DNA of 64,000 nt from Candidatus Hydrogenedentota bacterium (GTDB lineage: Bacteria > Hydrogenedentota > Hydrogenedentia > Hydrogenedentales > CAILVY01), in the NCBI GenBank assembly GCA_903837785.1, contig CAILVY010000051.1, positions 1 to 64,000 on the forward strand, written 5' to 3'. Below the pieces are notes generated by a model. That model saw only the letters and a program-made list of their open reading frames with translations. It ran no database searches and was not told the origin of the DNA. This document shows, in pieces, positions 12,134-29,664 of this stretch. Positions within the stretch are counted from its first letter, which is position 1. Every line of letters begins with the position of its first letter. Made by a program: the position numbers and the translations under genes.

Positions 12134-14329
12134 ATGTTTGGTCGGCGTAAAGAAGAATCGGAACAGCCGCTCGAGTCGCCTTCGGACGATACGGGCCCCG
12201 CTGTTCGCACGACGCCGACGGAGATGCGCACCGCGCCGGCGCCCATCGTCCACAAACGCCTGGGGGAATTGCTGCTCGACGAGAAGCTGGTGACACAACC
12301 TCAGCTCGACGAGGCCATTCGCGTCCAGAAAGAGCAAGGCGGCTTCATCGGGCAGATCCTGGTCAAGCTCGGCTTCGTGACGCAAAGCGCCGTGGCTTCC
12401 TGCCTCGTCAAGCAATGCAAGATTCCGCACCTGAGTCTGCTGGACTATGACATCGGCGCCGAGGTGCTGAAGCTGGTCCCAGAAGATGTGTGCCTCAAGT
12501 ACCACCTGCTGCCTATCGACAAGCTCGGCCGCATATTGACGGTGGCGATGGTTGACCCGCTGGATCTGGACGCGCTCGATTCGATTCGGCAGTCCTGTCC
12601 GGACTTGCGGATCAAACCGATCCTCTGCAATTGGGAACACTTCGACCTCGTGGCCAACCGGGTCTTTACGCGGTCGCAGCAGCAACGGGAAGGCGGTCAG
12701 GCTTATACTACGCAGAGCCTCGGGCTCTCGGCCATGGCCGGCGCAAAACGCGTGGAACCCACGCCCACCCCCATTCCCGAGGCCGTGCCCGTGGCGGCCG
12801 AGTTCCCGCCGGAGTCCGCGCGCGAAAGCACCGCCCCCGCAGCGTCCTACGGCGCGGCAGAGCTGGCCGCGGCCGCCCGCGAAGCGGTTCATGAAGTGGT
12901 GCGCGCGGCCAGCGAACAGCGGCCTTCGGGCATGAATTTCTCGGCGGAGGAACTCGCGGGCGTGATGCGCGACTCGCTGCGCGAGGCGGTGGGGTCCATC
13001 GTTCATGAACTCCGGCGCGCTCCCGAGGCGCCGCCCGCGCCGGAACGCGAAGCGCTGAACCCGCAGGATCTCGCCCAATTGATCCGCGAGAATGTGGGCG
13101 GCGCCATGCAGGAAGCGCTCGCCCAAGTGATGGTTCTGGCGCGCTCGCAGGTCACCCAGGAGAAACCGGCCGATGCCCCGCGGCTGGAACAGGTGGCCGA
13201 GGTCGTTGGAGAGAGCGTCGGCGGCGCCGTGCAGGAAGCCATGGCCTCCATGGTGGTCCAGCTGCGCGCCATGATGGGACCGAAAGACGCGGACAACGCC
13301 GTGTCCCGCAACCTTATCGAGGCCCTTCGAGAAGCCCAGGCGGAGACGGCCGCGCGCATGAGCGAGGCCATGGGGGCGTTGAATGACCGCCTCGCGTCAC
13401 GCGAAGAGCGGCTGACCCAGATTGCCGAGAACGCCTTGAAATCCGTGCAACAGACGGCCCAACTCGTCGAGACGGAGGCGGTATCCGAGGGCGTCCGCCG
13501 CGACCTGAATCCGGCGCGGCCGGAACGCCACGCTTCCGTTGCGCCGTTCGGCCGCGTGCAGGCCGGCCAAACGGACGCCGATGTCGAAGTGTACAAAGCG
13601 CTGGAATCCGAGCACCCGCTCGAGACGCTCACTTTCGAGAATTTCTTCCCCGGTTCGTCCAACGGCTTCACGTTCAAACTGAGTCAAGCCGTGGCCTCGC
13701 AGCCCGGCCGCGAGTACAACCCCTTCTTTCTCTACGGATCGGTCGGCATCGGCAAGACCCATCTGATCAGCGCGATCGGGAATACAATCCTGCGGAACAA
13801 TGGCACCCGCGTAGGATATGTTTCGGCGAGCCATTTCGCCCACCGCCTGGCCGACGCCATGCAGGACGGCGCCCTCGATGCCTTTCGCCAAAATTACTGT
13901 CACTGGGACGTGCTCATTCTCGACGACATCCAGTTCATGGGCGGCCGCGTCGAAGCGCAAGAGGAATTCTTTCACATTTTCAATGTGTTGCATCAGCAAG
14001 GGCGGCAAATCATCATTGCGAGCGACAAAGCTCCGGATCGGCTCGGTTTGCTCGAGCAGCGGCTCGTGTCGCGCTTTGCGAGCGGAATCGTGGCCGAGTT
14101 GAAGGCTCCGGAGTGGGAAACGCGGATGGAAATCCTGCGCCATCTCGTCAAGGAGACGCAGGCGAAGGTTCCCGAAGAGGTGCTTTCCCTGATTGCCATG
14201 CGCGTCCCGAACGACGTGCGCAAGATGACGGGTTCACTGAAGAAGATAGTCGCGTTCGCGAAGCTCGTGGGACAGGACATGTCTTGCGAGATGGCGGACG
14301 AAATTCTGAGCCATTTGAATGCCGCGTAG
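12134..14329 (+). CDS. MshEN domain - helical repeats - DnaA-type AAA+ domain fusion protein
   Basis: A 731-residue protein of unusual architecture. Residues 42-65 and 71-94 are two 24-residue MshEN motifs (RLGxxLxxxGx6LxxxLxxQ type) separated by exactly five residues, the known c-di-GMP-binding arrangement of PilB/MshE ATPases; the domain ends near 178. A Pro/Ala linker leads to four repeats of about 25-30 residues (241-380) and a helical stretch to about 450. Residues 495-729 are a DnaA domain-III-like AAA+ module: Walker A GSVGIGKT (535-542), Walker B VLILDD (593-598), sensor 1 IIIASD, arginine-finger region LEQRLVSRF (640-648), and a sensor 2 arginine in NDVRKMTG. DnaA domain IV, which binds origin boxes, is absent. 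The GspE-type ATPase gene starts 40 bases downstream, so a role in pilus or secretion control rather than replication is inferred. Confidence 0.85.
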   Translation: MFGRRKEESEQPLESPSDDTGPAVRTTPTEMRTAPAPIVHKRLGELLLDEKLVTQPQLDEAIRVQKEQGGFIGQILVKLGFVTQSAVASCLVKQCKIPHLSLLDYDIGAEVLKLVPEDVCLKYHLLPIDKLGRILTVAMVDPLDLDALDSIRQSCPDLRIKPILCNWEHFDLVANRVFTRSQQQREGGQAYTTQSLGLSAMAGAKRVEPTPTPIPEAVPVAAEFPPESARESTAPAASYGAAELAAAAREAVHEVVRAASEQRPSGMNFSAEELAGVMRDSLREAVGSIVHELRRAPEAPPAPEREALNPQDLAQLIRENVGGAMQEALAQVMVLARSQVTQEKPADAPRLEQVAEVVGESVGGAVQEAMASMVVQLRAMMGPKDADNAVSRNLIEALREAQAETAARMSEAMGALNDRLASREERLTQIAENALKSVQQTAQLVETEAVSEGVRRDLNPARPERHASVAPFGRVQAGQTDADVEVYKALESEHPLETLTFENFFPGSSNGFTFKLSQAVASQPGREYNPFFLYGSVGIGKTHLISAIGNTILRNNGTRVGYVSASHFAHRLADAMQDGALDAFRQNYCHWDVLILDDIQFMGGRVEAQEEFFHIFNVLHQQGRQIIIASDKAPDRLGLLEQRLVSRFASGIVAELKAPEWETRMEILRHLVKETQAKVPEEVLSLIAMRVPNDVRKMTGSLKKIVAFAKLVGQDMSCEMADEILSHLNAA

Positions 14330-14369: not shown

Positions 14370-16097
14370 GTGAGCATGAAGATTGCCAAGAAACGCTTGC
14401 CCGACATGTTGCTCGAGCAAGGGCTCGTGAGCCAGGAGCAACTGCAGGAATGCCTGCACCTCCAGCGGGCGACGAACAAGAGCCTGCAGGCGCTCCTCGT
14501 CGAGCGCGGCTATCTGAGCGAAGAAGACCTCGTCATCTGCCTGAGCGAACAGCTCGGCATCCCGCACATCCGCGTTGCGCACTACTCGATCCCGAAAGAG
14601 GTGCTGGCCGAAGTGCCCGAGGCCCTGGCCCGCCAATATCAGATGCTGCCCGTTTCCGTCACCGGGGACGTGCTCACGCTGGCGATGGCCAACCCGCTCA
14701 ACATCATGGCGCTCGACGACCTCCGCATGCTCACCAGCTACGAGATCGAGCCCGTGGTCGCGGTCGCCTCGGAATTGGCAGGGGCCATCGAACGCCACTA
14801 CGGCGGCGAGAAAGCGGACAACCTCTTCAAGACGCTGCTCGAGGAGAAGGGGGATCAGAATGTCGAAGAGGTCAAGGCCTACACGGCGGACGAAATCGAG
14901 GATGTCTCGAAGCTCGAGTCGGGCGCGGACGACGAACCGGTCAAGAAGCTGACGCGCCTCGTCATCTTCAACGGCCTCGAACGCGGCGCAAGCGACATTC
15001 ATATCGAGCCGTTTGAGAAGCTCATCCGCATCCGCTATCGCGTGGACGGCTCGCTCGAAGAGGCCAAGGCGCCGCCGAAAAGCCTCCAGCCCAACCTCAT
15101 TGCCCGGCTCAAGATCCTCGCCGGGTGCCGCATCGATGAACACCGGCTCCCGCAGGACGGCCGCTTCCGCATCCGATATAACAACCGCGAGATCGACTTT
15201 CGCGTGGGCTTCCTGCCCTGCAAACACGGCGAGAAAGTCGTGCTCCGCGTGCTCGACAAGGGCAGCCTTTCCCTGGACCTCGACAAGATGGGCTTCGAAC
15301 CGCAGCCCATGCAGGCCTTCTATGAAGCGCTGAAGCTGCCGCACGGCATGATCCTCATGACCGGCCCGACGGGCAGCGGCAAAACCACCACGCTGTACAG
15401 CGCGCTCTTCAAGCTCAACAAGCCCGAGACCAACGTGGTCACCGTCGAAGACCCGGTCGAATACGAGATGTTCGGCGTCAACCAGGTTCAGGTGCAGTCC
15501 GTGATCGGCTTCACGTTCGCCGAGGCCCTCCGCCAGATTCTGCGCCAGGACCCCAACGTGATCATGGTGGGCGAAATCCGCGACGGCGAAACCGCGGACG
15601 TCGCCGTCAAAGCCGCCCTCACCGGCCACCTCGTGCTGAGCACGCTCCATACGAATGACGCCTCCGGCGTGTTCCCCCGTCTCGTCGACATGGGCATCGA
15701 GCCGTTCCTCGTGCAGTCCTCCGTGGCGCTGGCGGCCGCACAGCGCCTGCTCAAGCGCGTCTGCGTGGACTGCAAGGAACCGATTCATGTGCCGCAGGAC
15801 GTGCTGGATCGCATCCAATACACGCCCTTCGAGCACATTCCGAATCCCACGTTCGTGCGCGGGCGCGGCTGCAGCAAGTGCAAGGACACCGGCTATCGCG
15901 GCCGCGCGGCCATCCTCGAAGCCATGCTCAACTGGCCGGACATGCATCCGCTCGTCCTGCAGCGCGCGACGGGCCACGCCATCAAGGCGAAGGCCATAGA
16001 ATGCGGCATGAAGACCCTGCGCCAGAACGCCCTGGCCAGCGCCGCCAAAGGCATTACCTCCATCGAGCAGGTGCTTGAACACACGATAGCCGATTGA
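14370..16097 (+). CDS. PilB/GspE-family type IV pilus or type II secretion assembly ATPase
   Basis: A 575-residue protein starting at GTG with AGAGGAAA upstream. The N-terminal MshEN domain again has two 24-residue motifs (9-32 and 38-61) with a five-residue spacer. The ATPase core has Walker A GPTGSGKT (332-339), the Asp box around VTVEDPVEY, Walker B NVIMVGEIRD (396-405) and the His box TGHLVLSTLHTND. A zinc tetracysteine is formed by C465, C468, C501 and C504. It is full length and should drive pilin or pseudopilin extrusion at the inner membrane. It shares an operon with the MshEN-DnaA protein. No pilC, pilM-Q or pilin gene is adjacent. Confidence 0.93.
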   Translation: MSMKIAKKRLPDMLLEQGLVSQEQLQECLHLQRATNKSLQALLVERGYLSEEDLVICLSEQLGIPHIRVAHYSIPKEVLAEVPEALARQYQMLPVSVTGDVLTLAMANPLNIMALDDLRMLTSYEIEPVVAVASELAGAIERHYGGEKADNLFKTLLEEKGDQNVEEVKAYTADEIEDVSKLESGADDEPVKKLTRLVIFNGLERGASDIHIEPFEKLIRIRYRVDGSLEEAKAPPKSLQPNLIARLKILAGCRIDEHRLPQDGRFRIRYNNREIDFRVGFLPCKHGEKVVLRVLDKGSLSLDLDKMGFEPQPMQAFYEALKLPHGMILMTGPTGSGKTTTLYSALFKLNKPETNVVTVEDPVEYEMFGVNQVQVQSVIGFTFAEALRQILRQDPNVIMVGEIRDGETADVAVKAALTGHLVLSTLHTNDASGVFPRLVDMGIEPFLVQSSVALAAAQRLLKRVCVDCKEPIHVPQDVLDRIQYTPFEHIPNPTFVRGRGCSKCKDTGYRGRAAILEAMLNWPDMHPLVLQRATGHAIKAKAIECGMKTLRQNALASAAKGITSIEQVLEHTIAD

Positions 16098-16190
16098 CGC
16101 AGTTCCGGGGTGCGCGGCCCGAGATCCGAAGCCGGATGAACGGCCGTTCCGCATCCCCTGTTGGCGAGGCGAGAAAGGGAGAAACAGATC

Positions 16191-17393
16191 ATGTGGCGTG
16201 CAATTGCGGTGGCAGCGTTGATGTTGTGCGGCGCGGCGGTGGCGGCAGAGTGGGAGCCGATGGTGGGAAGCGACCTCAGCGGGTGGAAAGTGCTGGGCGG
16301 CGAGTGGTCCGTTCAGGACGGCGTCGTTGTGGGCAAGACCGCCAAGCGCGAAGACTCATGCTGGCTTCTGTATGAGAAGCGCGAGTTTGCGGACTTCGAA
16401 CTCGAAGCCGAATTCATGACGCCCACTCCGGTCAACGGCGGCCTTCAGTTCCGCTCGCATTGGCTGCCGCGCATGCCGCTGAAGGACGGGGAATCCGTCG
16501 AGGCCGCCCCGAAGCAGATGTACGGCTATCAGGCGAACATCGAAACGCGCCAGCGGATGGCGACGGGCCGCCTCATGGACGAGAACGGCCGCGGCTATCT
16601 GGCCGAACCGGCGAAAGACGCCTGCATGACGCTCAAGCAGCGCGACTGGAACCGGATGCGCGTCGTGGCCCAGGGGCCCGTCATCGAAGTCTATCTGCAC
16701 GACGTGCTCGCGGCCAGGCTCGAGGACGAGGCCTTCCTCAAGGGTTTCATCTCGCTCCAGGTCTTCTCCATGGACGCCGATCAGGCCGAAGTGCAGTACC
16801 GCAACATTCGCGTGAAAGACAACGGCGCCGGCGGGAAGTGGCGCGCCCTGTTCGACGGGACCACGCTGAACGGATGGAAAGAATGGGGCTCGGAAACGTG
16901 GGCCGTCGAAGACGGCGCCATCGTCGGCCGTAGCGGCCCGAAGAAGTCCGAAGGCTATCTCGCGACCCTCGAACAATGGAAGGATTTCGACGTGCGCGGC
17001 GTTTTCAAGATGATGGGCGAGGGCAACTTCGGCCTCTTCTACCACGCCACGATCACGCTCAAAGACGACGGCTATCCCGTCATCGCGGGTGTGCAGGGCG
17101 AAGTCGAGCCCGCGTACCCGAGCAAGACCGGATGGATTTACGAGAGCTACAAGCGCGGCTGGCTCGTGACCCCCGAGGCCAAGACGGTTGCCGCCGTGGC
17201 CTTGCGGCCCGGCGCGTGGAACGAGATGGAAATCCGCTCCAAGGGCAGCCACGTGACCACCTGGGTCAACGGCATCCGCGTGCTGGACTTCGAGGACCCC
17301 GCGCCCAATCTCCTCGAAGGCAGCTTCGCCCTGCAGCTCCACACCGGCGGCACCGATGGCATCGCCTGGAAAGACCTCGCCGTCCGCGAATAA
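16191..17393 (+). CDS. Secreted protein with two DUF1080 (3-keto-disaccharide hydrolase-like) domains
   Basis: About 400 residues from the ATG at 16191, which has AAAGGGAG upstream and begins a signal peptide (MWRAIAVAALMLCGAAVAAE). Two laminin-G/concanavalin-like DUF1080 domains follow. The first opens with DLSGWKVLGGEWSVQDGVVVG and the second with LFDGTTLNGWKEWGSETWAVEDGAIVG. Each has the family pattern of W, E and a GGLQFRSH or GNFGLFYH segment. DUF1080 proteins are abundant in PVC-like bacteria and are linked to breakdown of 3-keto sugars. The gene stands alone, convergent with the next one. Confidence 0.85.
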   Translation: MWRAIAVAALMLCGAAVAAEWEPMVGSDLSGWKVLGGEWSVQDGVVVGKTAKREDSCWLLYEKREFADFELEAEFMTPTPVNGGLQFRSHWLPRMPLKDGESVEAAPKQMYGYQANIETRQRMATGRLMDENGRGYLAEPAKDACMTLKQRDWNRMRVVAQGPVIEVYLHDVLAARLEDEAFLKGFISLQVFSMDADQAEVQYRNIRVKDNGAGGKWRALFDGTTLNGWKEWGSETWAVEDGAIVGRSGPKKSEGYLATLEQWKDFDVRGVFKMMGEGNFGLFYHATITLKDDGYPVIAGVQGEVEPAYPSKTGWIYESYKRGWLVTPEAKTVAAVALRPGAWNEMEIRSKGSHVTTWVNGIRVLDFEDPAPNLLEGSFALQLHTGGTDGIAWKDLAVRE

Positions 17394-28114: not shown

Positions 28115-28173
28115 TTTGATCCTTATTCATTGCTCGCGGGAAGCAAACACCCCGATTGGATGAAGGTAGCCTC

Positions 28174-29664
28174 ATGTTTATCGGCAGTCAATCCACCAGC
28201 ACTATCCTGGACGTGTTCCGAATCGGCCTTCATGAAGTCGTCCGTCAGTGCGGCACCCCTTCCGAAGTTCGTTTCCGGACCGATCATGCCACGATTCACG
28301 CCAAAGCCCCCGATCTCACCCGGCGCGTGGACTTGATGCAGATCACGTTCGATGCGAAACCGGAGGCCACGCCGGACGCGCTGACCAATGCGCTCAAGGC
28401 GACCCAGATTGGGGGGCGTGTCCGGCTCGAAGATGGACGATGCGTGCTCACCGTGCCGCCGTTCGAATGGCGGCAGCTTGCCCAGTTGCTCCCGCTCGAT
28501 CGTCTCGTGGAAACCTATGTGGCCCAGACATTGCGGTCGCAGACCTGGTCCCTCGAAGTCCTCCAGTACATGAGTTCGAGCTTCAACATCAACAAGCTGA
28601 TTGAGTTGATGAAGCAAAGGAAGGCCTCGGACCTGCATCTGCGCGCGGGCAACCGGCCGTTCATCCGGGTGGACAATGATCTTGTTCCTTTGGACATGCC
28701 GCTGATCAGTTCCGAGGACATGCGCGAAATCATGTTGCAGCTCGGCGGCGAAGATGAATTGAACATGCTCGAAACCGAACGGGAATCGAGTTTCCAGTAC
28801 CACGCGGCGGGCACCGGCTATCTGCGTTGCAGCGGCTACATCAAGGGCGGCGCCACGGCGCTCGCCATCCGCCTCATTCCGGAACAGCCGCTGCCCTTCG
28901 AGAAACTGAACATCCCCGAGGTCGTCCGGAACATCTGCTACAAGCACCGCGGCCTCTTCCTCGTGTGCGGCGTGACCGGCTCCGGAAAATCCACCACGCT
29001 TGCGGCCATGATTGATTACATCAATCAGATCCGCAAAGTGCATATCATCACGATCGAGGACCCGGTCGAATACGTATACACGGACAAGCTCAGCATTATC
29101 TCGCAACGGCAGGTGGGCCGGGACACGCTCTCTTTCGGGAACGCGCTGCGCGGCAGCTTGCGTGAAGACCCTGATGTGATTCTCGTGGGTGAAATGCGCG
29201 ACATGGACACGATCCGCGCCGGCCTCAGCGCCGCGGAAACCGGCCATCTCGTGTTCAGCACGCTGCATACCACCACGGCGGTGGACACGATCAACCGCAT
29301 GGTCAGCTACTTTCCGCAGGCCGAACGCGATCTCATCCGGCAGGAAATCGCCTTCACGCTCCAGGGCGTGGTTTGTCAGCGCCTGCTCAAGCGCATCGGC
29401 GGCGGCCGCATTCCCTGCGTCGAGATCTTCCTGGGCGGGCGGCCGATTGTGCGCGACGCCATTCTCGAAGGCGACCTGGACAAGCTCCACGGAATCATCG
29501 AAGTCGACGGCGACATGCGCAGCTTCGACCAGTACTCCGTGGAACTCTTCCAGAAGGGACTCGTGACAAAGGAGGAGGCGATTTCCGCCTGCGCCAACGA
29601 AGAAGGCTTCGAGCGCATCATCTCGGGCATCAAGTCCTCGGAAGGCCGGAAGATCCTCAAGTAA
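28174..29664 (+). CDS. PilT-like ATPase with an extra N-terminal domain
   Basis: A 496-residue protein starting at ATG with GAAGG eight bases upstream. Residues 136-496 are a twitching-motility PilT/PilU-type ATPase: KASDLHLRAGNRP, Walker A GVTGSGKS (266-273), ITIEDPVEY, Walker B VILVGEMRD, TGHLVFSTLHT and a C-terminal VRDAILEG segment like the PilT AIRNLIRE motif. The first 135 residues form a separate beta-rich domain I do not recognise; ordinary PilT is about 345 residues and lacks it. Retraction ATPase activity is likely. Confidence 0.88.
   Translation: MFIGSQSTSTILDVFRIGLHEVVRQCGTPSEVRFRTDHATIHAKAPDLTRRVDLMQITFDAKPEATPDALTNALKATQIGGRVRLEDGRCVLTVPPFEWRQLAQLLPLDRLVETYVAQTLRSQTWSLEVLQYMSSSFNINKLIELMKQRKASDLHLRAGNRPFIRVDNDLVPLDMPLISSEDMREIMLQLGGEDELNMLETERESSFQYHAAGTGYLRCSGYIKGGATALAIRLIPEQPLPFEKLNIPEVVRNICYKHRGLFLVCGVTGSGKSTTLAAMIDYINQIRKVHIITIEDPVEYVYTDKLSIISQRQVGRDTLSFGNALRGSLREDPDVILVGEMRDMDTIRAGLSAAETGHLVFSTLHTTTAVDTINRMVSYFPQAERDLIRQEIAFTLQGVVCQRLLKRIGGGRIPCVEIFLGGRPIVRDAILEGDLDKLHGIIEVDGDMRSFDQYSVELFQKGLVTKEEAISACANEEGFERIISGIKSSEGRKILK

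Follow-up and report, generated by a model that had tools for sequence, protein, structure and literature searches.

In Pseudomonas and Xanthomonas, PilB works with cytoplasmic cofactors, FimX and PilZ, which steer PilB-driven pilus assembly and localisation, in the case of FimX in a c-di-GMP-linked manner (PMC5595344, PMC8389850, PMC11656802). The extension ATPases PilB, MshE and PilF carry an MshEN domain of their own (N1), and MshEN fused to other outputs is already known (PMC5013675), as in the NfrB glycosyltransferase (PMC8669469). DnaA (PF00308, TIGR00362), which initiates replication, has an AAA+ module as its domain III, and Hda, the regulatory inactivator of DnaA, is a DnaA-like AAA+ protein that lacks domain IV. 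We analysed a window of 64,000 nucleotides from a Candidatus Hydrogenedentota bacterium (positions 1 to 64,000 of contig CAILVY010000051.1, assembly GCA_903837785.1), in which the gene ahead of pilB joins an MshEN domain to DnaA domain III.

The role that we propose for this fusion is similar to those of FimX and PilZ, but the fusion is homologous to neither: FimX is of the GGDEF/EAL type, PilZ is of the PilZ type, neither has an AAA+ or MshEN domain, and Pfam scans detected no EAL, GGDEF or PilZ domain in the fusion. The MshEN fold is shared with PilB, MshE and PilF, and the genes adjoin; in those proteins, however, MshEN sits on a secretion ATPase, whereas here it sits on the AAA+ domain of DnaA. 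NfrB shows MshEN to be likewise portable and fused to an unrelated output, but that output is not an AAA+ domain. Domain III of the fusion is homologous to that of DnaA throughout (~40% identical to Bacillus subtilis DnaA) and has retained the ATPase residues and the arginine finger; unlike DnaA, the fusion lacks domains I and IV, has changed residues in the H and B motifs and in AID-1, carries CHW at residues 589-591 and aspartate for asparagine at residue 694, and is encoded in a pilus operon. Hda resembles the fusion in its domain content, but the fusion scores much lower on Hda than on DnaA, has MshEN and a long linker where Hda has a clamp-binding N-terminus, and lacks a replication context. 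Among open-licence papers, we found none linking MshEN or pilB with a DnaA-type protein or placing DnaA domain III in a pilus operon.

Architecture of the MshEN-DnaA fusion

The coordinates of the gene, its domains and its neighbour are given in Table 1. The preliminary description of this DNA had claimed an MshEN domain joined to a complete DnaA domain III without domain IV, and Pfam, NCBIfam, AlphaFold and Foldseek agree on this architecture. The protein starts with a low-confidence tail, followed by the MshEN half, whose nearest solved structures are PilF, PilB and MshE; the AAA+ half is nearest to domain III of DnaA from B. subtilis, Thermotoga and Aquifex. The top Foldseek matches are DnaA domain III (8bv3, TM 0.92 by target) and MshEN/PilF GSPII domains (5htl, 9g1w, 6ejf). 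The MshEN and AAA+ blocks are modelled with a pLDDT of ~91-98 and the helical region between them with low-to-medium confidence; the number of linker repeats accounts for some of the variation in length but not for all of it (r 0.44).

Table 1. Features of the fusion gene and the adjoining pilB gene (positions in the window)
Feature	Position	Strand	Evidence or remark
MshEN-linker-DnaA (domain III) fusion gene	12134..14329	+	731 aa, ATG start, no internal stop
MshEN_N, residues 42-65 and 71-94: two 24-residue c-di-GMP-type motifs, 5-residue spacer	12257..12415	+	NCBIfam NF053729 (MshE-type c-di-GMP motif domain, residues 42-94), E 2e-15, over cut-off
MshEN_C subdomain, residues 96-177; KPxLCxW (161-167) family-invariant	12419..12664	+	Pfam MshEN, PF05157, E 4.6e-16
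Helical linker, residues 239-457: ~four amphipathic repeats, then a 69-residue helix	12848..13504	+	AlphaFold, repeat scan
DnaA domain III AAA+, residues 498-728; no domain IV after it	13625..14317	+	PF00308, E 9.4e-55; PDB 8bv3/8btg/2z4r
Walker A GSVGIGKTH (535-543)	13736..13762	+	K541 in 54/54 fusions
Walker B LILDD (594-598)	13913..13927	+	D597 and D598 in 54/54
Arginine-finger motif SRF (646-648); R647 = E. coli R285	14069..14077	+	54/54
Sensor 2 arginine R696 = E. coli R334	14219..14221	+	54/54
pilB: extension ATPase that likewise carries an MshEN, a degenerate one	14370..16097	+	TIGR02538, E 2.9e-187; motif II glycine lost in 45/45 orthologues

The assignment of the AAA+ half to DnaA is clear. 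The Bac_DnaA match (residues 498-654) scores 185.7 bits, about four times the next family (47 bits for IstB and 24 for generic AAA), so that no better-scoring AAA+ family was found, and IstB, Hda and generic AAA are ruled out for residues 498-728 by score and fold. The TIGR00362 DnaA model aligns through residue 728 with 287.8 bits, which is under its cut-off of 343.9, as expected because domain IV is absent; the Hda model reaches only 99.4 bits against a cut-off of 194.8. Pfam scans found no Bac_DnaA_C (domain IV) match, and in full-length relatives domain III ends 0-8 aa before the C-terminus.

Distribution and pilus-operon linkage

The fusion is present in 56 of 68 Ca. Hydrogenedentota genomes, with some copies cut by contig ends. 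We read 50 distinct copies, 47 with the downstream pilB ATPase in view and one with the pilB N-terminus only. In every locus where the contig continues (48 of 48), pilB lies directly downstream, mostly across a gap of <220 bp (40 bp in the window). In most loci pilT comes after pilB, followed, in those loci whose neighbours were scanned, by genes for a PilS-like kinase and a PilR-like regulator of the NtrC type; in the window, the gene after pilB encodes an unrelated hydrolase (16161-17393). Hence, the fusion gene is linked to the type IV pilus system. The preliminary description had recognised the adjoining gene as a PilB with its own MshEN, as Pfam and NCBIfam also find, and its tie between a DnaA-derived AAA+ domain and a pilus ATPase holds phylum-wide, always in a type IV pilus operon. 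An apparent exception, a 'Nitrospiraceae' carrier (L061), matches a contig of a Hydrogenedentota genome (G045) exactly in length and in ORF coordinates and is probably mislabelled.

Twelve of the 68 genomes lack the fusion. Seven of these (G002, G008, G009, G019, G022, G044, G059) are also without an orthologous pilB, and in G055 the contig ends at this point. Two genomes of one genus (G012, G013) retain pilB-pilT-pilS-pilR without the fusion, and two others (G021, G024) have ahead of pilB a gene for MshEN plus linker without the AAA+ domain (L217:6700-8604, L158:560-1603). The AAA+ part can therefore be lost and is dispensable in some lineages.

Several related genes were seen in these genomes. 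In one locus (L059:12190-13914, G049) an in-frame TAG splits pilB into MshEN and ATPase ORFs. At a distance from the pilB operon, the window encodes a PilT-like ATPase of 502 aa with a long N-terminal extension (28156-29664), and another cluster in the source genome (L162, C392:1-20000) comprises three PilB/GspE ATPases of the MshEN type and one PilT-like ATPase. The source genome also encodes a paralogue of the N-terminal half of the fusion that shares the KPILC motif but has a cyclic-nucleotide-binding domain as its output in place of DnaA (L161:6527-7828, contig C326); an MshEN gene in G041 (L221) resembles this paralogue.

A survey of MshEN-DnaA fusions and their neighbours found the architecture to be wider than could be seen from the window, in at least two phyla. 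About 30 of 147 genomes of the WOR-3/Stahlbacteria group have a compact form of ~405 aa. All 21 WOR-3 loci examined have pilM-pilN immediately downstream in the same orientation; most of them also have pilO and a TPR gene close by, and some have pilD. In one Stahlbacteria locus (L105), a 411-aa MshEN-DnaA protein precedes a pilM-pilN fusion, and the locus further includes pilO, TPR genes and a gene resembling that of a prepilin peptidase. A different protein occurs in Elusimicrobiota (~29 of 150 genomes sampled), in which DnaA domain III has other N- and C-terminal parts and again no domain IV; its gene is in second place after pilT, or near it, in most loci viewed (examples are L079:9518-11374, L098:9560-11329 and L292-L311). 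Sumerlaeota encode giant proteins of many TPRs that end in a DnaA domain III, again with domain IV absent (L127:3334-8580, L076, L077, L094, L116, L123, L128, L089), several of which begin, by eye, with a cysteine motif like the DnaG zinc finger. No pilus genes were present in the flanks examined of these Sumerlaeota loci; MshEN beside a DnaA domain had no match in 40 Sumerlaeota genomes, and MshEN-DnaA had none in 21 genomes from other lineages.

ATPase residues and ancestry of the AAA+ domain

The roles of individual DnaA residues in the H and B motifs, AID-1 and the ATPase site are known (PMC5742627, PMC6127211), and we fixed the Escherichia coli numbering through gammaproteobacterial DnaA rows. 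The equivalents of Lys178, Asp235, Asp236, the arginine finger Arg285 and the sensor 2 Arg334 are invariant in all 54 Hydrogenedentota fusions compared. The WOR-3 copies have retained Walker A and B, but the arginine finger is gone from 8 of the 19, so oligomerisation through the finger would not be universal. The Hydrogenedentota fusions also have constraints specific to the family (C589-H590-W591, D694 and K704), which suggest another partner.

When 76 AAA+ domains are placed in a tree, the fusions of Hydrogenedentota and of WOR-3 and the TPR-DnaA proteins of Sumerlaeota fall on one side of a branch with a support of 99/96, and all sampled canonical DnaA proteins and the Elusimicrobiota form fall on the opposite side. 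The branch uniting the two MshEN-DnaA groups is weakly supported (87/61). A recent origin from the dnaA of the same phylum is rejected for WOR-3 (AU p 0.0002) and disfavoured for Hydrogenedentota at a borderline AU p of 0.0475. Given this branch and the AU results, the module seems to be a DnaA paralogue of long standing and not a recent local duplication. A single origin of all domain-IV-less forms, including that of Elusimicrobiota, is neither shown nor rejected (AU p 0.17); the Elusimicrobiota protein probably has a separate origin.

Proposed role and alternatives

We think it fairly probable that the fusion works in the cytoplasm as a cofactor dedicated to the type IV pilus. Its domain III would be an ATP-binding AAA+ module that no longer handles DNA and that most likely self-assembles head-to-tail via the arginine finger, as DnaA does. 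The MshEN half, of the kind found on the PilB N-terminus, most likely docks on the PilB-PilM side, a contact suggested by gene order alone. ATP-dependent assembly would then organise, recruit or license the extension motor at the pilus base, and would thereby control extension. The MshEN half of the Hydrogenedentota protein may, in addition, be a sensor of c-di-GMP, which the adjoining PilB seems no longer to be.

The same pilus role could be performed without c-di-GMP, with MshEN as a non-binding GSPII fold for protein docking and ATP as the sole switch, and we give this version a substantial chance, though one somewhat short of even. The preliminary description reported two 24-residue motifs with an exact five-residue spacer; their lengths and spacing are as described, but they are not perfect, as motif II begins F-I-G and not R-L-G and motif I of the window protein has lysine for glycine at position 10. 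Among 50 Hydrogenedentota fusions, motif I retains its arginine in 40, its glycine in 48 and its final glutamine in 35, and motif II retains its glycine in 45 and its final glutamine in 41, but the arginine at position 1 of motif II is replaced by phenylalanine, tyrosine or leucine in all 50. In Thermus GSPII-A, a serine at this position abolishes binding of c-di-GMP, and restoration of the arginine is among the changes necessary for binding (PMC12002112). The model of the fusion is also nearer to this non-binding domain (9g1w, rmsd 1.9) than to c-di-GMP-bound MshE (5htl, rmsd 3.2-3.5), although an AlphaFold model is apo-like and says little on binding. Against this, the remaining key motif residues are retained in Hydrogenedentota, and the motif II phenylalanine may stack on guanine. 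The adjoining PilB differs: the motif II glycine is missing from 45 of 45 orthologues, and that of motif I is often missing as well. Hence, should c-di-GMP be sensed here, the fusion would be the likelier receptor. The source genome encodes 14 GGDEF domains. In the WOR-3 copies, RLG is missing from motif I, and the motif II glycine is glutamate in 19 of 19; the function that unites this architecture is therefore unlikely to be c-di-GMP binding, but it can be docking by the MshEN fold. Gating of the fusion by c-di-GMP is thus possible but unproven, and the second-messenger part of the earlier interpretation is weakened by the absence of the motif II arginine and the loss of the signature in WOR-3.

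It is improbable that the fusion is a DNA-uptake factor whose domain III would bind single-stranded DNA as it enters at a transformation pilus. Type IV pili do perform DNA uptake, DnaA domain III can bind single-stranded DNA, and Thermus PilF, with three MshEN-type domains, has been studied for transformation (PMC12002112). However, the residues for such binding have been lost. Val211 of the H motif is alanine, polar or charged in most fusions, with isoleucine, leucine or methionine in only 5 of 54 and valine in none. Arg245 of the B motif is acidic (glutamate or aspartate) in 46 of 54, and Lys243 is arginine or histidine in 46 of 54 and lysine in only 7. The protein of the window has A573 and E607 at the Val211 and Arg245 positions and so lacks the H and B residues that bind single-stranded DNA. 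The Arg245 change alone says little because the canonical DnaA of the same phylum also lacks this residue (alanine, serine or glycine in 21 of 21); that DnaA has isoleucine or valine at Val211 and arginine at Arg227 in all 21. Taken together, the residues fit an AAA+ domain that uses ATP, probably self-associates and has been relieved of binding single-stranded DNA.

Less probable still is a c-di-GMP-controlled regulator of replication, in which domain III would co-assemble with the DnaA of the cell or act like Hda, and so couple surface life to initiation. The homology to DnaA is genuine, the arginine finger and sensor 2 are intact, and the genome has a canonical dnaA elsewhere (contig C255). 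But domains I and IV are absent, the Hda score is far under its cut-off (99 against 194.8 bits), and the conserved neighbours are pilus genes at every locus. In addition, Arg227, an interface residue of AID-1, is cysteine in 42 of 54 fusions, whereas the phylum's own DnaA has kept the arginine; Arg281 is retained in 42 of 54. With the ATPase residues invariant and the H, B and AID-1 residues lost, replication and DNA work are disfavoured and a pilus-dedicated, ATP-driven and probably oligomeric cofactor is favoured. The coupling to chromosome replication and the Hda-like assembly regulator that the preliminary description had also considered are both disfavoured by these findings; its architecture was right and its interpretation partly so. 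An assembly or gene-calling artefact joining two genes has a negligible probability and no point in its favour, as ~50 distinct fusions with conserved order and spacing in independent Hydrogenedentota assemblies refute it.

Both domains are known singly; on a bolder reading, a DnaA AAA+ domain inside a pilus operon would be a categorically new use of DnaA. The balance of our judgement leans towards a multi-phylum class of type IV pilus proteins, unrecognised so far, in which the initiator AAA+ domain has been given a second use as a switch, driven by ATP, for assembly or recruitment of the pilus motor; this class would include the proteins of Hydrogenedentota (with pilB), of WOR-3 (with pilMN) and, probably by a separate route, of Elusimicrobiota (with pilT). 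If so, domain-IV-less 'DnaA' matches in the genomes of these phyla are probably not initiators. If the proposal is true, it also offers a testable answer to the question of what recruits or switches PilB in these phyla, and the fusion would be a natural DnaA domain III that has shed its DNA functions but retained the ATP switch, which would help to tell the two apart. DnaA is regarded as a protein of replication; should pilus motors in several phyla make use of its AAA+ engine, type IV pili would gain a regulator of a new type.
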